Shown: piece by piece, positions 5,051 to 46,731 of the stretch
How the letters are laid out: every line of letters starts with the position of its first letter
Position numbering within the stretch: the stretch's first letter is position 1
DNA from: Tolypeutes matacus
Taxonomy: Eukaryota; Chordata; Mammalia; Cingulata; Chlamyphoridae
Assembly (NCBI GenBank): GCA_026826555.1
Contig: JAKSZT010053928.1
Coordinates: 1,264,629 to 1,328,628 of the forward strand
Reading direction: 5' to 3'
Length of the DNA stretch: 64,000 bases
Position numbers and translations under genes: made by a program
The notes under the pieces: generated by a model
Told to the model about the DNA's origin: nothing
Databases searched by the model: none
The model's input: the letters and a program-made list of their open reading frames with translations, nothing else

Positions 5051-5053
5051 GCC

Positions 5054-5560
5054 TGTATTAGTCAGCCAAAGGGGTGCTAATGTGAAATACCAAAAATGTG
5101 TTGGTCTTCATAAAGGGTATTTATTTGGGGTAGAAGTCCACAGATACCTGGCCATAAAGCGTTAAATTTCTTCTCTCACCACAGTCCATTGTTACGTGTT
5201 TGAGCAAGACAGCTGCTGGTGTTTGCCAGGGTTCAGGCTTCTGGGGTTCCTTTCTTCCCGGGGCTGCGTTTCTCTCCAGGCTTAGCTCCTGTTTCCTCCA
5301 CAAGGTCAGCTGTAGACGATCGGGCGAACGGCTTGTTTCTCCTCTCCGGGGGCCTTTTTCCAACATCAAAACTGCTTCTCAAAAGTCTGCTTCAACTGTC
5401 TTTTGCCTTGCCTTTTATATTCGATTCTCTACCCACCAAGGGGTGGGGCTCAATGCCCTAATCCTAACCTAATCATGCCCAGATTAACAGATCAGTTTAC
5501 AAGCATGATCCAATTATATTTTTGGAATTCATAATTACATCAAATTCCCCAACTGTTACA
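5054..5560 (-). mobile_element. Solo LTR (class III/MaLR-like), copy 1
   Basis: A 507-bp element running TG..CA, flanked by a perfect 5-bp duplication ttgcc (5049-5053 and 5561-5565). On the minus strand it has a TATAAAAGG promoter motif (complement near 5412-5420), then an AATAAA signal near the 3' end, and ends '..gactaataca', resembling MaLR LTR ends. A 5-bp duplication fits ERV-L/MaLR integration. No internal viral sequence lies beside it, so it is a solo LTR left by recombination. A close relative sits at 46219-46731. Family name not determined. Confidence 0.85.
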
Positions 5561-5746: not shown

Positions 5747-5910
5747 CTGCAATCTTGGCAGGGGAGATACTATGCTTACAAAGGTGGTTTTCCCAGGGTG
5801 AGTCTTATCCATTGCACTCCAGATGTGCTGACCCCTGTGATTTCCCCAAATGTGGGAAACTCAACTGCATAATTTGTGGTAGTGGGGGACTGCATTCACA
5901 CTCTCCCCTT
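5747..5910 (+). pseudogene. RNU1 pseudogene: U1 snRNA pseudogene
   Basis: This stretch aligns without gaps to all 164 nt of mammalian U1, the RNA that pairs with 5' splice sites in the spliceosome. The U1A-binding loop 'attgcactcc' (5811-5820) and the Sm site 'aatttgtgg' (5871-5879) are intact. From nt 13 onward I count about 14 differences, several of them CpG decay. The first 12 nt, including the 5'-splice-site recognition bases, are largely changed: U1 nt 3-11 read gcaatcttg instead of the conserved ACUUACCUG. With that guide lost it cannot work as U1. No A tail follows. Its 3' end directly meets an antisense retroviral leader. Confidence 0.92.
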
Positions 5911-6640: not shown

Positions 6641-6809
6641 ATGAAATATGACTACAGTTGTTTATCAGAATGCAGTGAGCATAGTTAGTAGCAATGCTTC
6701 ATTATTTGTACACCAATTGTAACAAATGTACCATATACATGTAAAATGTTAATAGGGGAAAGTGGAAAGGGGGAGGGGGTTGGGTATATGGGAATCCCCT
6801 GTATTTTCT

Positions 6810-7717
6810 TTCTTTCTTTTTTTAAATTTATTGAAGTATATCATTCATACATGAACATATGTAAACTATAAGTGTTCAGTAAACATCGTGAACTTACAAA
6901 ACAAACATATATAACATCATACAGGGCTCCCACACATCATCCCCCCACAAACACTCTGCATTTATGTGAACATTTGTTAACACATCATGAAAAAGCATCA
7001 TCAAAATATTACTACTAACTATAGTCTGTATCTCCCTCCCCTATACATTTTTTTAAAGGATTTATTTATTCATTTATTTACTTTTATCCATTTTTACCCC
7101 CCCTCCCCATTTTTGCTGTTTCTGTGCCCATTCACTGGGCAATGCTCTGTGTCCGTTTCCTGCCCTCACTTCTCATCCTTCTCCTCCTGTCTTCACTGGG
7201 ATTCGATCCTTGAAATCTCTGGTATGGGAGAGAGGTGTCCTACTGCATGTGCCACCTTAGCTCCTGGTTTTTCGGCATGTCTCATCTTGGCTCTCCCTTG
7301 TGTTATTCTCCTGTTATGTCATCATCTTGCTGCGTGGCTCGCGGGGCCTGGCGGCTCAACTGCACACAGGGCCTGGTGGCCCATGCACCTTTTGTATTTT
7401 TCTTTTTTTAATTTTTACCAGGAGGTCCTGGGGATCGAACCCAGGTCTGTCCATATGGGAGACGGATGCCCAACCACCCAAGCCACATCTGTCCCCCTGC
7501 TATATCTCTTAAGGTTGACCAAGGATACCCAAAGTTACAGTCTTTTCCCATACAGGATGGTCATGTAATAAACCAGGCTTAGCTTATCACCAGCATTCTA
7601 AAATCCAGATCTAGGGAGAAAAACTAGGTCTGGATCCACATACATGGTTTGTAATATAGCGAATGTTTAGCCTACCCTGATTATCACAAAATCAGGTTAA
7701 CGAGAATATTCACATCT
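6810..7717 (-). mobile_element. Composite SINE-VNTR-L1-tail retroposon, copy A (908 bp)
   Basis: On the minus strand it runs: 5' unique part (~7717-7500), a tRNA-like SINE unit (~7499-7400), a 25-bp tandem repeat (7389-7343), a second SINE-like unit with A/T-rich tail (~7330-7058), then an L1-type 3' UTR ending in CAATAAATTT and an A-rich tract near 6810-6835. An 11-bp target duplication (ctgtattttct at 6799-6809, ctatattttct at 7718-7728) marks the ends. Copy B at 20941-21855 has the same parts and ends but a different duplication, so both are independent insertions of one source. Open frames inside are fortuitous. Confidence 0.75.
7343..7389. repeat. 25-bp minisatellite in composite copy A, about 2 units
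   Basis: One full unit (ggggcctggcggctcaactg..., 7343-7367) and one partial unit (7368-7389). The same unit occurs about five times in copy B, so the copy number differs between the two elements. Confidence 0.7.
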
Positions 7718-7834
7718 CTATATTTTCTATGTGACTTTTCTGTAACCTAAAGCTTCTTTGAAGATAAAGTAAAAAAAATAAGACACTGGGGGAACATATG
7801 GAAGAAATCGTCACTGCACATAAAAGATAACAGA

Positions 7835-9690
7835 TCTTACAGTGATGAAAGACACGATGAAAAAGATTTTATTTATTTTATTTTCATATTTGTATTTTAT
7901 TTGTTATTTTAAAATTATTATTTTATTTTCATGTCATTTTTGTGTTTTTTTGGCTTTGTTTTTGGGGAGGTTGGGTTCAGAGAAGGGTCACAACTGTGGC
8001 AGGGAAGGATCACTGATAGTGCAGGGTGTCAGTGATGGGGGGATGTATGGGGAGGGGTGCATCTGGGGCATGACTCTAAGGCATATGAATATGTTCAAGT
8101 GGTCATGGGGCATTGTCTCGGTGGGTGAAGACCCACACAATAACCAAAAGAATATTGAATTTCCATCCTGGGAAGTCTTGCTACATTCTTTAATAGAGCG
8201 GCAAGAATCCCCTAAGTACATGGGCAGTACTCAGCAAAGGAGGACAGACTATTACACCAGGCCCTTGATACTGATGGGTGTTCTTATGAAACTTTTCTTG
8301 TGAAATTGAAACTTAGCTTAGTATTATATATTGCCTAAGAGTTACCTCCTGAAAGCCTCTTTGTTGCTCAAATGTGGCTAAACTCAGCATATAAATGCAC
8401 TACCTTCCACCTGGCTTGGGACATGATTCCTGGGGATGAGCTTCCCTGGCACTGAGGGATTATTACCAAGCACCAACTAGGGATGCATTTGGAAAAAGAC
8501 CTGGACCAAAAGGGGGAAATATTAATTACAAATGAGTTTTTATGGCTAAGAGATTTCAAAGTGAATCAAGAGATCATTCCAGAGGTTACGCTTATGCATG
8601 TCTCAGCAGGATCTCATTTGACTGCCACAATAAACAGTGCTTCAAACAGTGGAGCTCCTGAGGGCTCTAGAGACATCTAGACACTATAGGCAGGGCAGAC
8701 AATCTCAGGAATTTGGCACCCTGTCAGTGGGCCTTACTTTGGAATATATTCTCCCCAATACAACAGAGTTAGACTCATTTATATTTTCCCTACACATAGC
8801 TCTTCTGCCCCTTTATTTGAACCTATAATTGTTACTATACTCATTAAATATATGTCTCAGAGATTTAAATCTTCAGTTTGTTCAAATGACAGTTGAGCCC
8901 TGAATCTCAGCAGAGTTGCGACACCTACTCTCCAGTTCACTGGACTCACCCAGGACAACTAACAAAAGGATGATGATGGACAATGCCCATCCCAAAACAC
9001 AGAGTATCTACAATCACAAGCAAGACAGTTCCATCCATCTGCCACATAGGAGCTAAGCCTTCTCTCAGTCAGAAACAGAGTGGGCATAACCATCCAAAAA
9101 TCCTCAAGATTGAGGAATGAACAAACATAAGGAGGGAATGCAACTATGGACTAAAGTAGACTTATTATTATTCTAGCAATGGAAGAATTTATATCATTGA
9201 TATAAAAGCAGTGGCCACCAGAGGTTCTGAGGGGAGGGAGAGGGAACAATAGGTGTAACACAGGGCATTTTTGGGACATTGGAGTTGTCCTGCATGACAT
9301 TGCAATGATGGATACAAGCCATTATTCATTTTGTCAAAACTTGTAAAGTTGTACAGTGCAAAGTGTAAACTATAATGTAAACTATAGACCATAGTTAGTA
9401 GCAATACTTTAATGTATGTTCATCAATTATAACAAATGTACCACACTAATGAAAGATGTTGTTAATAAGGGAAAGTGGGGGAGGGGACAGGGGTGGGTAT
9501 ATGGGAATCCTCTATATATTTTTTATTTATTTTTTACTGTTTTGTTGTTTTTTTCTTTTTTTAATTTGTTTTTTTCTTTTTATTCTTTCTTCTCTTTTTT
9601 TTTTCTTTCTTTTTGGAATCTCCTATATTTTTTATGTAACATTTATGTAATCTAAAGCTTCTTTTTAAAAAAGATTAAAAATGTATTCAC
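7835..9690 (+). mobile_element. Unclassified xenarthran repeat with L1-type 3' UTR
   Basis: From about 9300 to 9660 the sequence is an L1-type 3' UTR: 'gacattgcaatgatggatac', 'caattataacaaatgtacca', 'gggtatatgggaatcctcta', 'gtaatctaaagcttcttt', then an A-rich tail. A T-rich low-complexity tract (9515-9615) interrupts it. The upstream ~1.4 kb reads as one continuous decayed non-coding unit with no reverse transcriptase frame. I do not know the family. A 153-codon frame at 7842-8303 looks fortuitous. Confidence 0.4.
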
Positions 9691-16380: not shown

Positions 16381-16606
16381 GGAGCAAGTTTTTAAATCAG
16401 TGTTTTCTAACTCTGCAGTCAACCCCAGAACAGTTTGCTTATGAAATTTTCAAAATTAAATAGAGCACAACAGCAACTTTGTTTAATTTTCTTCTCTGAT
16501 TTAGACTTTTTTTTTTTTTTAAGGTACCGGGCCTGGGATTGAACCTGGGACCTCATATGTAGGAAGCTGGTGCTCAATCGGCTTCCCTGAATTGGTTTCT
16601 TCATTA

Positions 16607-17020
16607 CCCTTTTTTTTTTTTTTAAGATTTATTAATTTCATCCCCCCGCCCCCCTCATTGTTTTGTGCTCACTGTCTGCTCTCTGTGTGTTCTTCTGTGT
16701 CTGCTTGTTTTCTCTTTAGGCGGCACCGGGAACCGATCCTGGAACCTTCCGGAGCAGAGAGAGGTCCTGAATCTCTTGCGCCACCTCAGCTCCCTGGTCT
16801 GCTGTGTCTCTTATTGTCTCTCCTCTGTGTCTCCTTTTGTTGCATCATCTTGCTGTGCCAGCTCTCCACGCGGGCCAGCACTCCTGTGCAGGCCAGCTCT
16901 CTGCTTGGGCCAGCTTGTCGCACAGGCCAGCTTGCCTTTCACCAGGATGCCCCGGGAATTGAACCCTGGACCTCCTATATGGTAGACGAGAGCCCAATCG
17001 CTTGAGCCACATCTGTCTCC
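16607..17020 (-). mobile_element. Long DAS-SINE with internal tandem repeat, nested in another SINE
   Basis: A 414-bp dimeric copy. Two tRNA-like halves, with B-box complements near 16725-16745 and 16955-16972, are joined by a linker containing a ~17-bp tandem repeat (16857-16938). T-rich tail at left. It is inserted into an older SINE with an 8-bp duplication cttcatta (16599-16606 and 17021-17028). Confidence 0.85.
16857..16938. repeat. 17-bp tandem repeat inside long DAS-SINE
   Basis: Four to five units starting gccagc (e.g. gccagctctccacgcgg, gccagctctctgcttgg), 17-18 bp each, between the two tRNA-like halves. The same array appears in the SINE at 45182-45625. Confidence 0.75.
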
Positions 17021-17131
17021 CTTCATTAGTGTTGCTTGTTTTTTGTTTTTACAGGAGGCACCGGGAACCAAACCTGGGACCTCCCACGTGGGAGATGGGT
17101 ACTCAACTGCTTGAGCCACATCCATTCCCAC

Positions 17132-20835: not shown

Positions 20836-20940
20836 TAGTTTCTTCATTGCTACCCATGTTTGTCAGAAATAAAAGGGTTGTGATTTCAGACATGAGGAAA
20901 AAAATGGCTTCTTTACAATTGTTTATTATTCTCATTATAT

Positions 20941-21855
20941 ATATATTTTAAACAATTTATTGAAGTATATAATTCATACATGAATATACAGAAACTATAA
21001 GTGTTCAGGAAACATTGTGAACCTACAACACAAACATGCATAACATCATACAGGGCTCCCACACATCAGTCCCCCACAAATACTTTGCATTGCTGTGAAA
21101 CATTTGTTAACAAATTATGAAAGAGCATTGTCAAAGTATTACTACTAACTATAGTCTGTATCTTTCTCCCCCATACATTTTTTTAAGGACTTATTTATTT
21201 ATTTACTTTTATCCATTTTTTACCACCCCCCGCCCCCCATTTGCTGTTTTGTGTCCATTTGCTGGGCAACTCTCTGTGTCCATTTCCTGCTCTCTCTTCT
21301 CATCCTTCTATCTTCACTGGGATTTGATTCTTGGAACCTCCAATGTGGGACAGAGGCATCTGACCATCTGTGCTACTTTAGTTCCTGGTTTTACGGCGCA
21401 TCTTGTCTTGGCTCTCCCTTGTGTCACTCTCCTGTTATGTCATCATCTTGCTGTGTGGCTCGCGGGGCCTGGCAGCGCACCTGTGCATGGGGCCTGATGG
21501 CTCACCTGCACAAGAGGCCTGGGAGGCTCTCCTGCTCACGGGGCCTGGTGGCGCAGCCCGCACATGGGGCCTGGTGGCCCATGTGCCTTCTATATTTTTC
21601 TTTTTTTTATTTTTAACACTTGAACCACAACCGTCTCCCTGCTATATCTCTTAAGGTTGACCAAAGATACCTAGAGTTACAGTCTTTTCCCATACAGGAT
21701 GGTCATATAATAAATCAGGCTTAGTTTATCACCAGCATTCTAAAAACCAGACCTAGGAAGAAAAACTAGGTCTGGGGACACATGCATGGTTTCTAATATA
21801 GTGAATGTTTAGCCTACCCTGATTATCACAAAATCAGGACAGCAAGAATATTTGC
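20941..21855 (-). mobile_element. Composite SINE-VNTR-L1-tail retroposon, copy B (915 bp)
   Basis: Same order as copy A on the minus strand: 5' unique part (~21855-21640), remnant of the first SINE unit (~21639-21617, largely deleted), 25-bp VNTR (21587-21464), second SINE-like unit (~21455-21180), L1-type 3' UTR, CAATAAATTG and A-rich end near 20941-20962. A perfect 13-bp duplication attctcattatat lies at 20928-20940 and 21856-21868. It differs from copy A in target site and VNTR length, so it is not a segmental duplication of copy A. Confidence 0.8.
21464..21587. repeat. 25-bp minisatellite in composite copy B, about 5 units
   Basis: Units begin at 21464, 21489, 21514, 21540 and 21566, consensus ggggcctggtggcncacctg plus ~5 bp. 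GC-rich island in AT-rich surroundings. Confidence 0.8.
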
Positions 21856-21868
21856 ATTCTCATTATAT

Positions 21869-45181: not shown

Positions 45182-45625
45182 AAAAATTTTTTTTTTAATT
45201 TTAATTTTTTAAAGACTTATTTATTTATTTCTCTCCCCCACCCCTCATTGTTTTATGTTCACTGTCTGCTGTGTGTTCTTCTGTGTCTGCTTGTCTTCTC
45301 TTTAGGGCGGCACTGGGAACTGATCCTGGGACTTTCTGGAGTGGGAGAGAGGCGCTTAATCTCTTATGCCACCTCAGCCCCCTGGTTTGCTGTGTCTGTT
45401 ATTGTTCTCTTCTGTGTTTCTTTTTGTTGCATCATCTTGCTGTGCCAACATGCCATGCAGGCCAGCACTCTGCTTGGGCCAGTACTCTGCGTGGGCCAGC
45501 TCTCCACTTGGGCCAGCTCTCTGCTCAGGTCAGCTTGCCTTTCCGCACGAGGCCCCGGGAATCGAACCCTGGACCTCCTATATGGTAGATGGGATCCTAA
45601 TCGCTTGAGCCACGTCCGTTTCCCA
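45182..45625 (-). mobile_element. Long DAS-SINE with internal 17-bp tandem repeat
   Basis: A 444-bp dimer: halves with B-box complements 'gggaactgatcctgggactt' (45315 area) and 'gggaatcgaaccctggacct' (45556 area), joined by a linker holding the tandem array at 45461-45540. Perfect 16-bp duplication tgatttacatttaatt at 45166-45181 and 45626-45641. Sister of the copy at 16607-17020. Confidence 0.93.
45461..45540. repeat. 17-bp tandem repeat inside long DAS-SINE
   Basis: Units of exactly 17 bp start at 45461, 45478, 45495 and 45512 (gccagcactctgcttgg and variants), with a partial fifth at 45529. Confidence 0.85.
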
Positions 45626-45641
45626 TGATTTACATTTAATT

Positions 45642-46218
45642 TTATATACTCTGTTGATTGGGCTTTTATCATTATCCAGGGAAATTCTTGTTTGAGTTGA
45701 CAAGGTCATGTTCCAAAGATATTCATTTCTCCTAGAAGAAATTGAGGCAGTCTGCAGTCAGTCTACCATGAAGAATGTGGGCCAGGATTGGTTTAATTCT
45801 GTTCATATCAGGTACTGTAAATTTTTCTTTCATTACCATTTAGTTTAGCAACTGAAATAATAGAAATAGAAATTTTATGGCAAAATGGAATTTGCCTGTT
45901 GACTATTTTAACTGAAAATGGAGAATAGACTGATAATTTAGGAGGCTCCATCTGAATTATAAATCATTATAGCAACTTTGTAGTCCTATTAGCATTTATG
46001 AACTAGCTACAGTGCTAAGAGCTGTAGAATTTGAAAACTTGTGTAAGAAAAGGATGGTCTGGTCTCAGTGTCCTTCAAAAATGCCACAGCAATACTGTGT
46101 AACTTCTTTTTTTTTTTTTTTTTTTAATTGTGTTTTGCTTGTTTTGGGCTTAGCAATTGGAATTTTGAAAAGTTCTTGCATTGCATTAGCATAGTGACAG
46201 CACTGATTGAAAGCCATC
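45642..46218. other. Unique sequence, no gene recognised
   Basis: A T run lies at 46106-46125 with no recognisable retrocopy attached. Nothing else identified. Confidence 0.4.
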
Positions 46219-46731
46219 TGTATTAGTCAGCCAAAGGGGTGCTAATGTGAAATACCAAAAATGTGTTGGTCTTTATAAAGGGTATTTATTTGGGGTAGAA
46301 GTCCACAGATACCAGGCCATAAAGCTTTAAGTTTCTTCTCTCACCACAATCCATTGCCACGTGTTAGAGCAAGACAGCTGCCGGCATTTGCCAGGGTTCA
46401 GGCTTCTGGGGGTCCTCTCTTCCCGGGGCTGTGTTTCTCTCCGGGCTTAGCTCCTGTCTCCTCCACAAGGTCAGCTGTAGACGATCAGGTGAAAGGCTTG
46501 CATCTCTTCTCCTGGGGCATTCTTTCCAACATCAAAACTGCTTCTCAAAAAACTGCTTCAACTCTGTTCTTGCCTTGCCTTTTATATTCAATTCCCCACC
46601 CACCAAAGGGGTGGGGCTCAACGCCCTACTGACATGGCCCAGTCCATGCCCAGATAAAGAGATCAGTTTACAAGCATGATCCAATTATATTTTTGGAATT
46701 CATAATTATATCAAACTGACCAACTGCAACA
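46219..46731 (-). mobile_element. Solo LTR (class III/MaLR-like), copy 2
   Basis: A 513-bp TG..CA element flanked by a perfect 5-bp duplication ccatc (46214-46218 and 46732-46736). On the minus strand it carries TATAAAAGGC (complement near 46579-46588) and AATAAATACCC near the end, as in copy 1 at 5054-5560. The two copies align end to end with modest divergence and different target sites, so they are separate integrations. Confidence 0.88.

Follow-up and report, generated by a model that had tools for sequence, protein, structure and literature searches.

A high-copy composite retroposon family of the armadillo Tolypeutes matacus headed by SNORA72 and RPL30 intron sequence, with a 5' end that may be set by RNA processing

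SVA, LAVA, PVA and FVA are composite, non-autonomous retroposons mobilised by L1, with a central GC-rich VNTR and pieces of SINEs; a 2015 account describes such VNTR composites as hominoid-specific and gives LAVA, too, an L1-derived 3' part (PMC4432496). Another rare design carries a small nucleolar RNA (snoRNA) at the front, as in PlatSINE1/snoRTE of the platypus, for which about 40,000 paralogs are given (PMC2832892; PMC7245038). The high-copy platypus snoRNA in a table of the former source is SNORA7, and the same source describes snoRTs, which are snoRNA copies inserted with an A-tail and a target duplication (PMC2832892). Small RNAs (U6, U3 and others) are also reported joined to the 5' side of L1-mobilised sequence in chimeras, those with U6 being presented as single events, usually without further propagation, for which template switching or RNA ligation is proposed (PMC13174262). 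The family described here, from the genome of an armadillo, has the layout of a VNTR composite and the head of a snoRNA-headed SINE, thereby uniting both rare designs in a third lineage.

The window, as the whole analysed stretch of 64,000 nucleotides is called here, contains copies A (6810-7717) and B (20941-21855) of the element, both with their sense on the minus strand. From 5' to 3', copy A opens with SNORA72 and 84 nt of further unique sequence. Two SINE units follow, the first of tRNA type, with a VNTR between them, and the element closes with an L1-like tail, in which AATAAA is the last motif, and an A-rich end (Table 1). A preliminary description of this DNA had given the coordinates of both copies, the module order and both ends, all of which are confirmed by the sequence; the common design that it saw in A and B holds for the order of the modules but not for their completeness, because copy B has lost most of its first SINE unit (family-consensus positions 237-298 are unmatched). 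VNTR length varies among copies as had been anticipated, with about two units in A, 4.5 in B and a larger array in another copy (L079). A third copy lies just past the right end of the window (L049:3323-4229).

Table 1. Features of copies A and B, in window coordinates
Feature	Position	Strand	Basis or remark
Copy A, head nt 1-134, complete SNORA72 H/ACA snoRNA	7582..7715	-	cmscan RF00139, 123.9 bits, model 1-132 of 132, cut-off 43
Copy A, 84 nt of RPL30 intron directly downstream of SNORA72 ('mid')	7498..7581	-	position; family consensus vs L131
Copy A, first tRNA-type SINE unit (DAS-like)	7395..7497	-	tRNA model match below threshold (22.9 bits, cut-off 29)
Copy A, GC-rich VNTR, about two 25-bp units	7332..7391	-	absent from TRF listing for A
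Copy A, second SINE unit and A-rich end	7049..7331	-	sequence comparison
Copy A, L1-like 3' tail, last motif AATAAA	6827..7047	-	sequence comparison
Copy A, A-rich tail	6810..6826	-	sequence
Copy A, target duplication, 11 bp, one mismatch between partners	6799..6809 and 7718..7728		
Copy B, complete SNORA72	21724..21857	-	cmscan, 138.2 bits, cut-off 43; first 2 nt overlap target duplication
Copy B, RPL30-intron piece	21640..21723	-	sequence comparison
Copy B, remnant of first SINE unit	21597..21639	-	internal deletion; limits approximate
Copy B, VNTR, 4.5 units	21454..21578	-	TRF: 21464-21578
Copy B, second SINE unit	21176..21453	-	limits approximate
Copy B, L1-like tail	20956..21175	-	sequence comparison
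Copy B, target duplication, 13 bp, perfect	20928..20940 and 21856..21868		

Elsewhere in the window there are a full-length match to U1 snRNA (5747-5910, plus strand, 118.9 bits), probably a pseudogene, and two copies of another interspersed repeat (5053-5560 and 46218-46731), 91-92% identical in their matched pieces. Matches to snoU30 (23.3 bits, cut-off 45) and mascRNA (19.2 bits, cut-off 42.5) were dismissed as below cut-off.

The different target duplications claimed for the two copies, 11 bp in A and 13 bp in B, were found as described, with one mismatch in A and none in B. Taken alone, that of A is weak (score 7.8, with 7 being reached by 87 of 335 control pairings) and that of B is strong (score 13, with 12 being reached by 2 of 335), each control being a mismatched pairing of a 5' flank with the 3' flank of another copy. 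Seventy distinct loci were pooled, comprising A, B, L049 and the copies fetched from the genome, with L050 (which is copy A) and L067 (a duplicate of L014) left out; both anchors are present in 67, the exceptions being L057, L061 and L064. A score of at least 10 is reached by 44 of these 67 copies versus 9 of the 335 mismatched pairings, and a score of at least 7 by 60 of 67 versus 87 of 335. The 5' end can be placed in the 50 copies that score at least 9, among which the junction falls exactly at snoRNA nucleotide 1 in 21 and within 2 nt of it in 42, where even scatter over the 24 positions allowed by the search would give about 10 of 50; the fixed start postulated in the preliminary description is thus observed, without scatter. 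Duplications of 12-15 bp occur in 30 of the same 50 copies, and the most frequent opening tetranucleotide among all 50 is AAAA (16 of 50), so that the A-tail, the target duplication and the A-rich target start of L1-type insertion are all represented. The distance from nucleotide 1 to AATAAA is 748-1168 nt in 65 of 67 copies; L036 (1298) and L038 (1287), where a neighbouring tail had supplied the 3' anchor, fall outside this range and were kept in the duplication counts. Length varies with the size of the VNTR (L052, L058, L066, L079) and through later insertions or deletions (L051, L055, L074). Given their separate target duplications and the thousands of sites with the same joints, copies A and B are independent retrotranspositions of one composite family, as first supposed.

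The extent of the family was determined in the species' own genome, one genome only (3.63 Gb in 5,002 contigs). With the whole element as query, all 40 scored matches, from 12,494 first-look candidates, are nearly full length at 87-100% identity. Pattern counts over the whole genome, allowing at most 3 mismatches in 40 and yielding zero with reversed-pattern controls, gave 11,982 snoRNA heads, 8,620 intron/SINE joints and 17,957 tails, so that the two copies first noticed belong to a family with about 12,000 detectable heads. The joint pattern was passed by 26 of 36 loci chosen by their heads, and the tail pattern also by 26. With a correction for such decay, joints may number closer to 12,000 and tails closer to 25,000, although the correction is rough because these 36 loci are the best-scoring ones. 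Tails outnumber heads 1.5-fold in the raw counts and about 2-fold after this rough correction, with a head detectable for about half to two thirds of tails and none detectable for a third to a half, suggesting either that ordinary 5' truncation has affected many copies or that the tail also occurs elsewhere.

Searches with the 5' part lead to the same structure. The first 216 bp alone gave 40 scored matches (of 2,255), and in 27 of the 30 loci that were cut out the element runs from snoRNA to tail; these 27 include copy A (L050) and the duplicate L067, as well as L074, which lacks both the first SINE unit and the VNTR, and L078, which has no VNTR match. Among the other loci, L057 and L061 extend only to the A-rich stretch that closes the second SINE unit, and L064 is broken by an inverted tail. 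The SNORA72 model gave 47 scored matches, all of at least 140 bits (of 599,819 loose candidates). Eight of them were cut out. Seven proved to be composites, some of which have lost or gained internal sequence (L085, L086); the remaining one, L080, keeps only 39 nt of the intron piece. The 39 others were fetched with 500 bases per side, stretches outside which composite tails would lie, and in 34 of them the snoRNA and the intron piece are followed by the first SINE unit, in L120 by the second unit as well. The intron piece is shortened in L099 and L114; the 39 also include three simple A-tailed copies of SNORA72 (L104, L111, L112) and two copies of a different composite type (L089, L103).

When identical sequences among all the loci collected up to that point were merged and the head had to align from nucleotide 12 or earlier to nucleotide 125 or later, 117 distinct heads remained, of which 111 are followed by the intron piece, one by a shortened piece (L099), three are simple copies and two are of the other type. 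Such constancy bears on whether a snoRNA retrocopy, SINEs and an L1 3' end became nested by chance, or whether one such place was segmentally duplicated. SINEs are dense enough in the window for nesting to be imagined (13 copies of one unit), but the same intron piece after 111 of 117 heads, the same joints at thousands of sites and the separate target duplications leave this explanation next to no probability, and copy number together with the separate duplications rules out both of its forms. The intron piece was also sought without a SINE after it: 142 sites were obtained (at most 2 mismatches), and the best three (L127-L129) proved to be composites with small local insertions or duplications. 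Inside the composite, L127 and L128 have A-runs, with a short insert in L128, between repeats resembling AAGAGATATAGCA; it looks as if the L1 machinery had used a CTT/AAGA site to insert little beyond a poly(A) tail.

The head is a snoRNA of the H/ACA type, with two hairpins, an H box and an ACA-type box 3 nt from the end (Rfam alignment and fold), the latter reading AUA in the sequence; the consensus head likewise folds into an H/ACA-type double hairpin. Human SNORA72 is listed with RPL30 as its host gene (PMC7072173), and the armadillo gene was located through its protein. The intron of this gene that was inspected first contains no SNORA72; the last intron does (L131:888-1002, minus strand, 89.7 bits), and nucleotides 2-84 of the family's 84-nt piece match the sequence that follows SNORA72 there at 92.9% over 84 columns, the RPL30 intron running on without a SINE at the position of the joint. 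The head is therefore a fragment of the RPL30 intron whose start coincides with that of SNORA72 itself, so that its birth can be traced to one intron. That the 5' part is not upstream L1 sequence, as the preliminary description held, is borne out.

The tail has AATAAA and an A-tail, and weakly matches a stretch of the window (9387-9460) over 79 bp at 74.7%. That stretch looks L1-like, and the tail may accordingly be L1-derived; among the listed open reading frames upstream of it, no L1 ORF2 was seen by eye. The earlier label of an L1-type 3' UTR is thus likely from this one match, not proven. In each of the 16 tail matches that were read, of 40 listed, the tail is immediately preceded by the second SINE unit, which shows that the tail, in the form read in those 16, belongs to the composite family; they are close matches to the tail of copy A, and more diverged L1 relatives may escape such a search. 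A 5'-truncated L1 with passengers, its 5' end being an accident of truncation, would explain why the tail looks L1-like. It is hardly conceivable for an element headed by SNORA72 and RPL30 intron, not L1, with 5' ends that cluster at one nucleotide (two observations that rule it out), and with none of the 16 tails read, among the best matches to that of copy A, leading into other sequence.

The SINE units of the core resemble tRNA-type units found all over the window, presumably DAS-SINEs, which Churakov reportedly described from the armadillo in 2005. Two dimeric tRNA-type SINEs of the window (16600-17040 and 45195-45640, minus strand) have an internal VNTR of their own, with units of 17-18 bp; as this is the plan of the composite core, the VNTR probably came with the SINE.

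Full copies typically start where SNORA72 starts, suggesting that the front end of the element may be set by RNA processing. The ends of intronic snoRNAs are described as products of exonuclease trimming up to the bound proteins, and SPA lncRNAs, which are headed by a snoRNA and finish in poly(A), provide a precedent for the kind of RNA required (PMC11028025). Since the copies begin at snoRNA nucleotide 1, the shortest account is that the family RNA is an SPA-like RNA copied by L1. The family would have been born when a fragment of the RPL30 intron, already trimmed to the 5' end of the snoRNA, was joined to a SINE-VNTR-SINE-tail transcript by template switch or RNA ligation, perhaps in one event. 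Thereafter, an RNA polymerase II transcript passing through a copy in the sense orientation would fold its SNORA72 domain into an H/ACA snoRNP that would halt 5'-3' trimming at the first nucleotide of the snoRNA, giving a constant 5' end, while AATAAA would direct a polyadenylated 3' end; L1 would then copy this RNA, and the element itself could do without a promoter. On the evidence of the junctions and the origin of the head, a non-autonomous, L1-mobilised composite with a head of SNORA72 and 84 nt of RPL30 intron, whose 5' end is set by snoRNP processing, is the reading that we consider probable. The identity and origin of the head, this possible fixing of the 5' end and the many tails without a detectable head go beyond the preliminary description.

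Alternatively, the head of the same family may itself be a promoter and the fixed 5' end a transcription start, which we regard as unlikely without discounting it. A promoter within the head or close to it would account for a fixed start as well as processing does, and the heads of SINEs are characterised as mainly internal promoters (PMC7245038). However, the start coincides with the snoRNA's own 5' end, the head derives from mid-intron sequence, in which transcription would not be expected to begin, and the tRNA-type unit begins about 218 nt downstream. Five consecutive T, as read from the head sequence, should moreover terminate transcription by RNA polymerase III and argue against that enzyme.

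Composites diverge by about 5% from one consensus. At non-CpG sites the divergence is 5.1% for the tail (n=30) and 5.9% for the first SINE unit (n=33), in loci chosen by their heads; with a mammalian substitution rate near 2.2e-9 per site and year, about 5% corresponds to a family age of roughly 25 million years, as an order of magnitude only. Such divergence from a single consensus would also fit a few master loci with external promoters, SNORA72 being a one-off passenger from the birth of the family and now idle, and head, intron piece and SINE do move together. This version has a rather small probability, as an external promoter usually adds upstream sequence, yet the copies stop at snoRNA nucleotide 1, and as A-tailed copies of the snoRNA alone exist. 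The snoRNA part diverges by 3.1% versus 3.8-4.9% elsewhere (40 copies, P 0.001-0.10), a weak sign of constraint.

The snoRNA-only copies amount to 55 A-tailed sites (snoRNA, TAAG and an A-run, at most 3 mismatches). The three that were read in context (L104, L111, L112) consist of snoRNA, TAAG and A-tail; in the latter two, clear target duplications can be made out by eye. In six of the 55 sites, TAAGCC is followed by ten A, as in the composite, where RPL30 now has CAAGTC; some snoRNA-only sites may therefore be snoRNAs cut from composite transcripts, or else TAAGCC may be older RPL30 sequence and the sites its relics. The variant CCCGATTTT is found in L104 and L111, in one of the two heads of the second composite type, and in none of the 111 composite heads.

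That second SNORA72-headed type, seen in L089 and L103 from base 501 (sense), comprises the snoRNA, 13 nt, a piece of a SINE end, a T-rich stretch and a different short tail, with a 12-bp target duplication in L103 (by eye). It was found at 33 sites, of which 17 are identical over 40 nt, so that it looks young.

In RPL30 itself, SNORA72 is 19 nt short, with a gap in its 3' hairpin (in one assembly), whereas it is complete in many retroposed copies, which score up to 153.1 bits: the host small-RNA gene seems to decay at home while its retroposed copies stay complete. The host may thus now depend on the mobile copies. We entertain only tentatively the broader idea of a promoterless retroposon fed by any transcribed intron, with a 5' end supplied by the snoRNP and a polyadenylated 3' end, in a host that perhaps depends on its mobile SNORA72 copies; if true, the spread of the composite moved SNORA72 out of its ancestral RPL30 home. 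The family in any case raises a testable question, namely whether RNA processing, and not a promoter, can define the 5' end of a retroposon.

A literature search for SNORA72 together with Dasypus returned no paper, and none reporting a SNORA72-headed composite family was found, Repbase and Dfam being outside the scope of that search; a family so large may well be catalogued in pieces already. The resemblance to hominoid SVA and gibbon LAVA noted in the preliminary description is right in that the composite works as they do, but it lacks their defining 5' CT-hexamer/Alu-like region and is headed instead by a snoRNA and host-gene intron. Its VNTR unit is 25 bp long versus 30-50 in the SVA/LAVA type, and, as it belongs to another mammalian lineage than the hominoid VNTR composites, shared descent is not likely. 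Host-gene sequence, from an exon and an intron of PTGR2, is present in PVA too, but there it lies in the 3' part. Simple SNORA72 copies of the snoRT kind occur in this genome too, with the A-tail straight after the snoRNA; the composite instead continues for about 750 further nt, adding intron, SINE-VNTR-SINE and tail, and has grown to high copy number, and unlike the U6/L1 chimeras it propagates. Nearest in the head is PlatSINE1/snoRTE of the platypus, like the composite a high-copy retroposon with a 5' snoRNA, although probably a snoRNA other than SNORA72; by its description it has an RTE-type tail, and a VNTR/tRNA-SINE core such as that of the armadillo family forms no part of that description.
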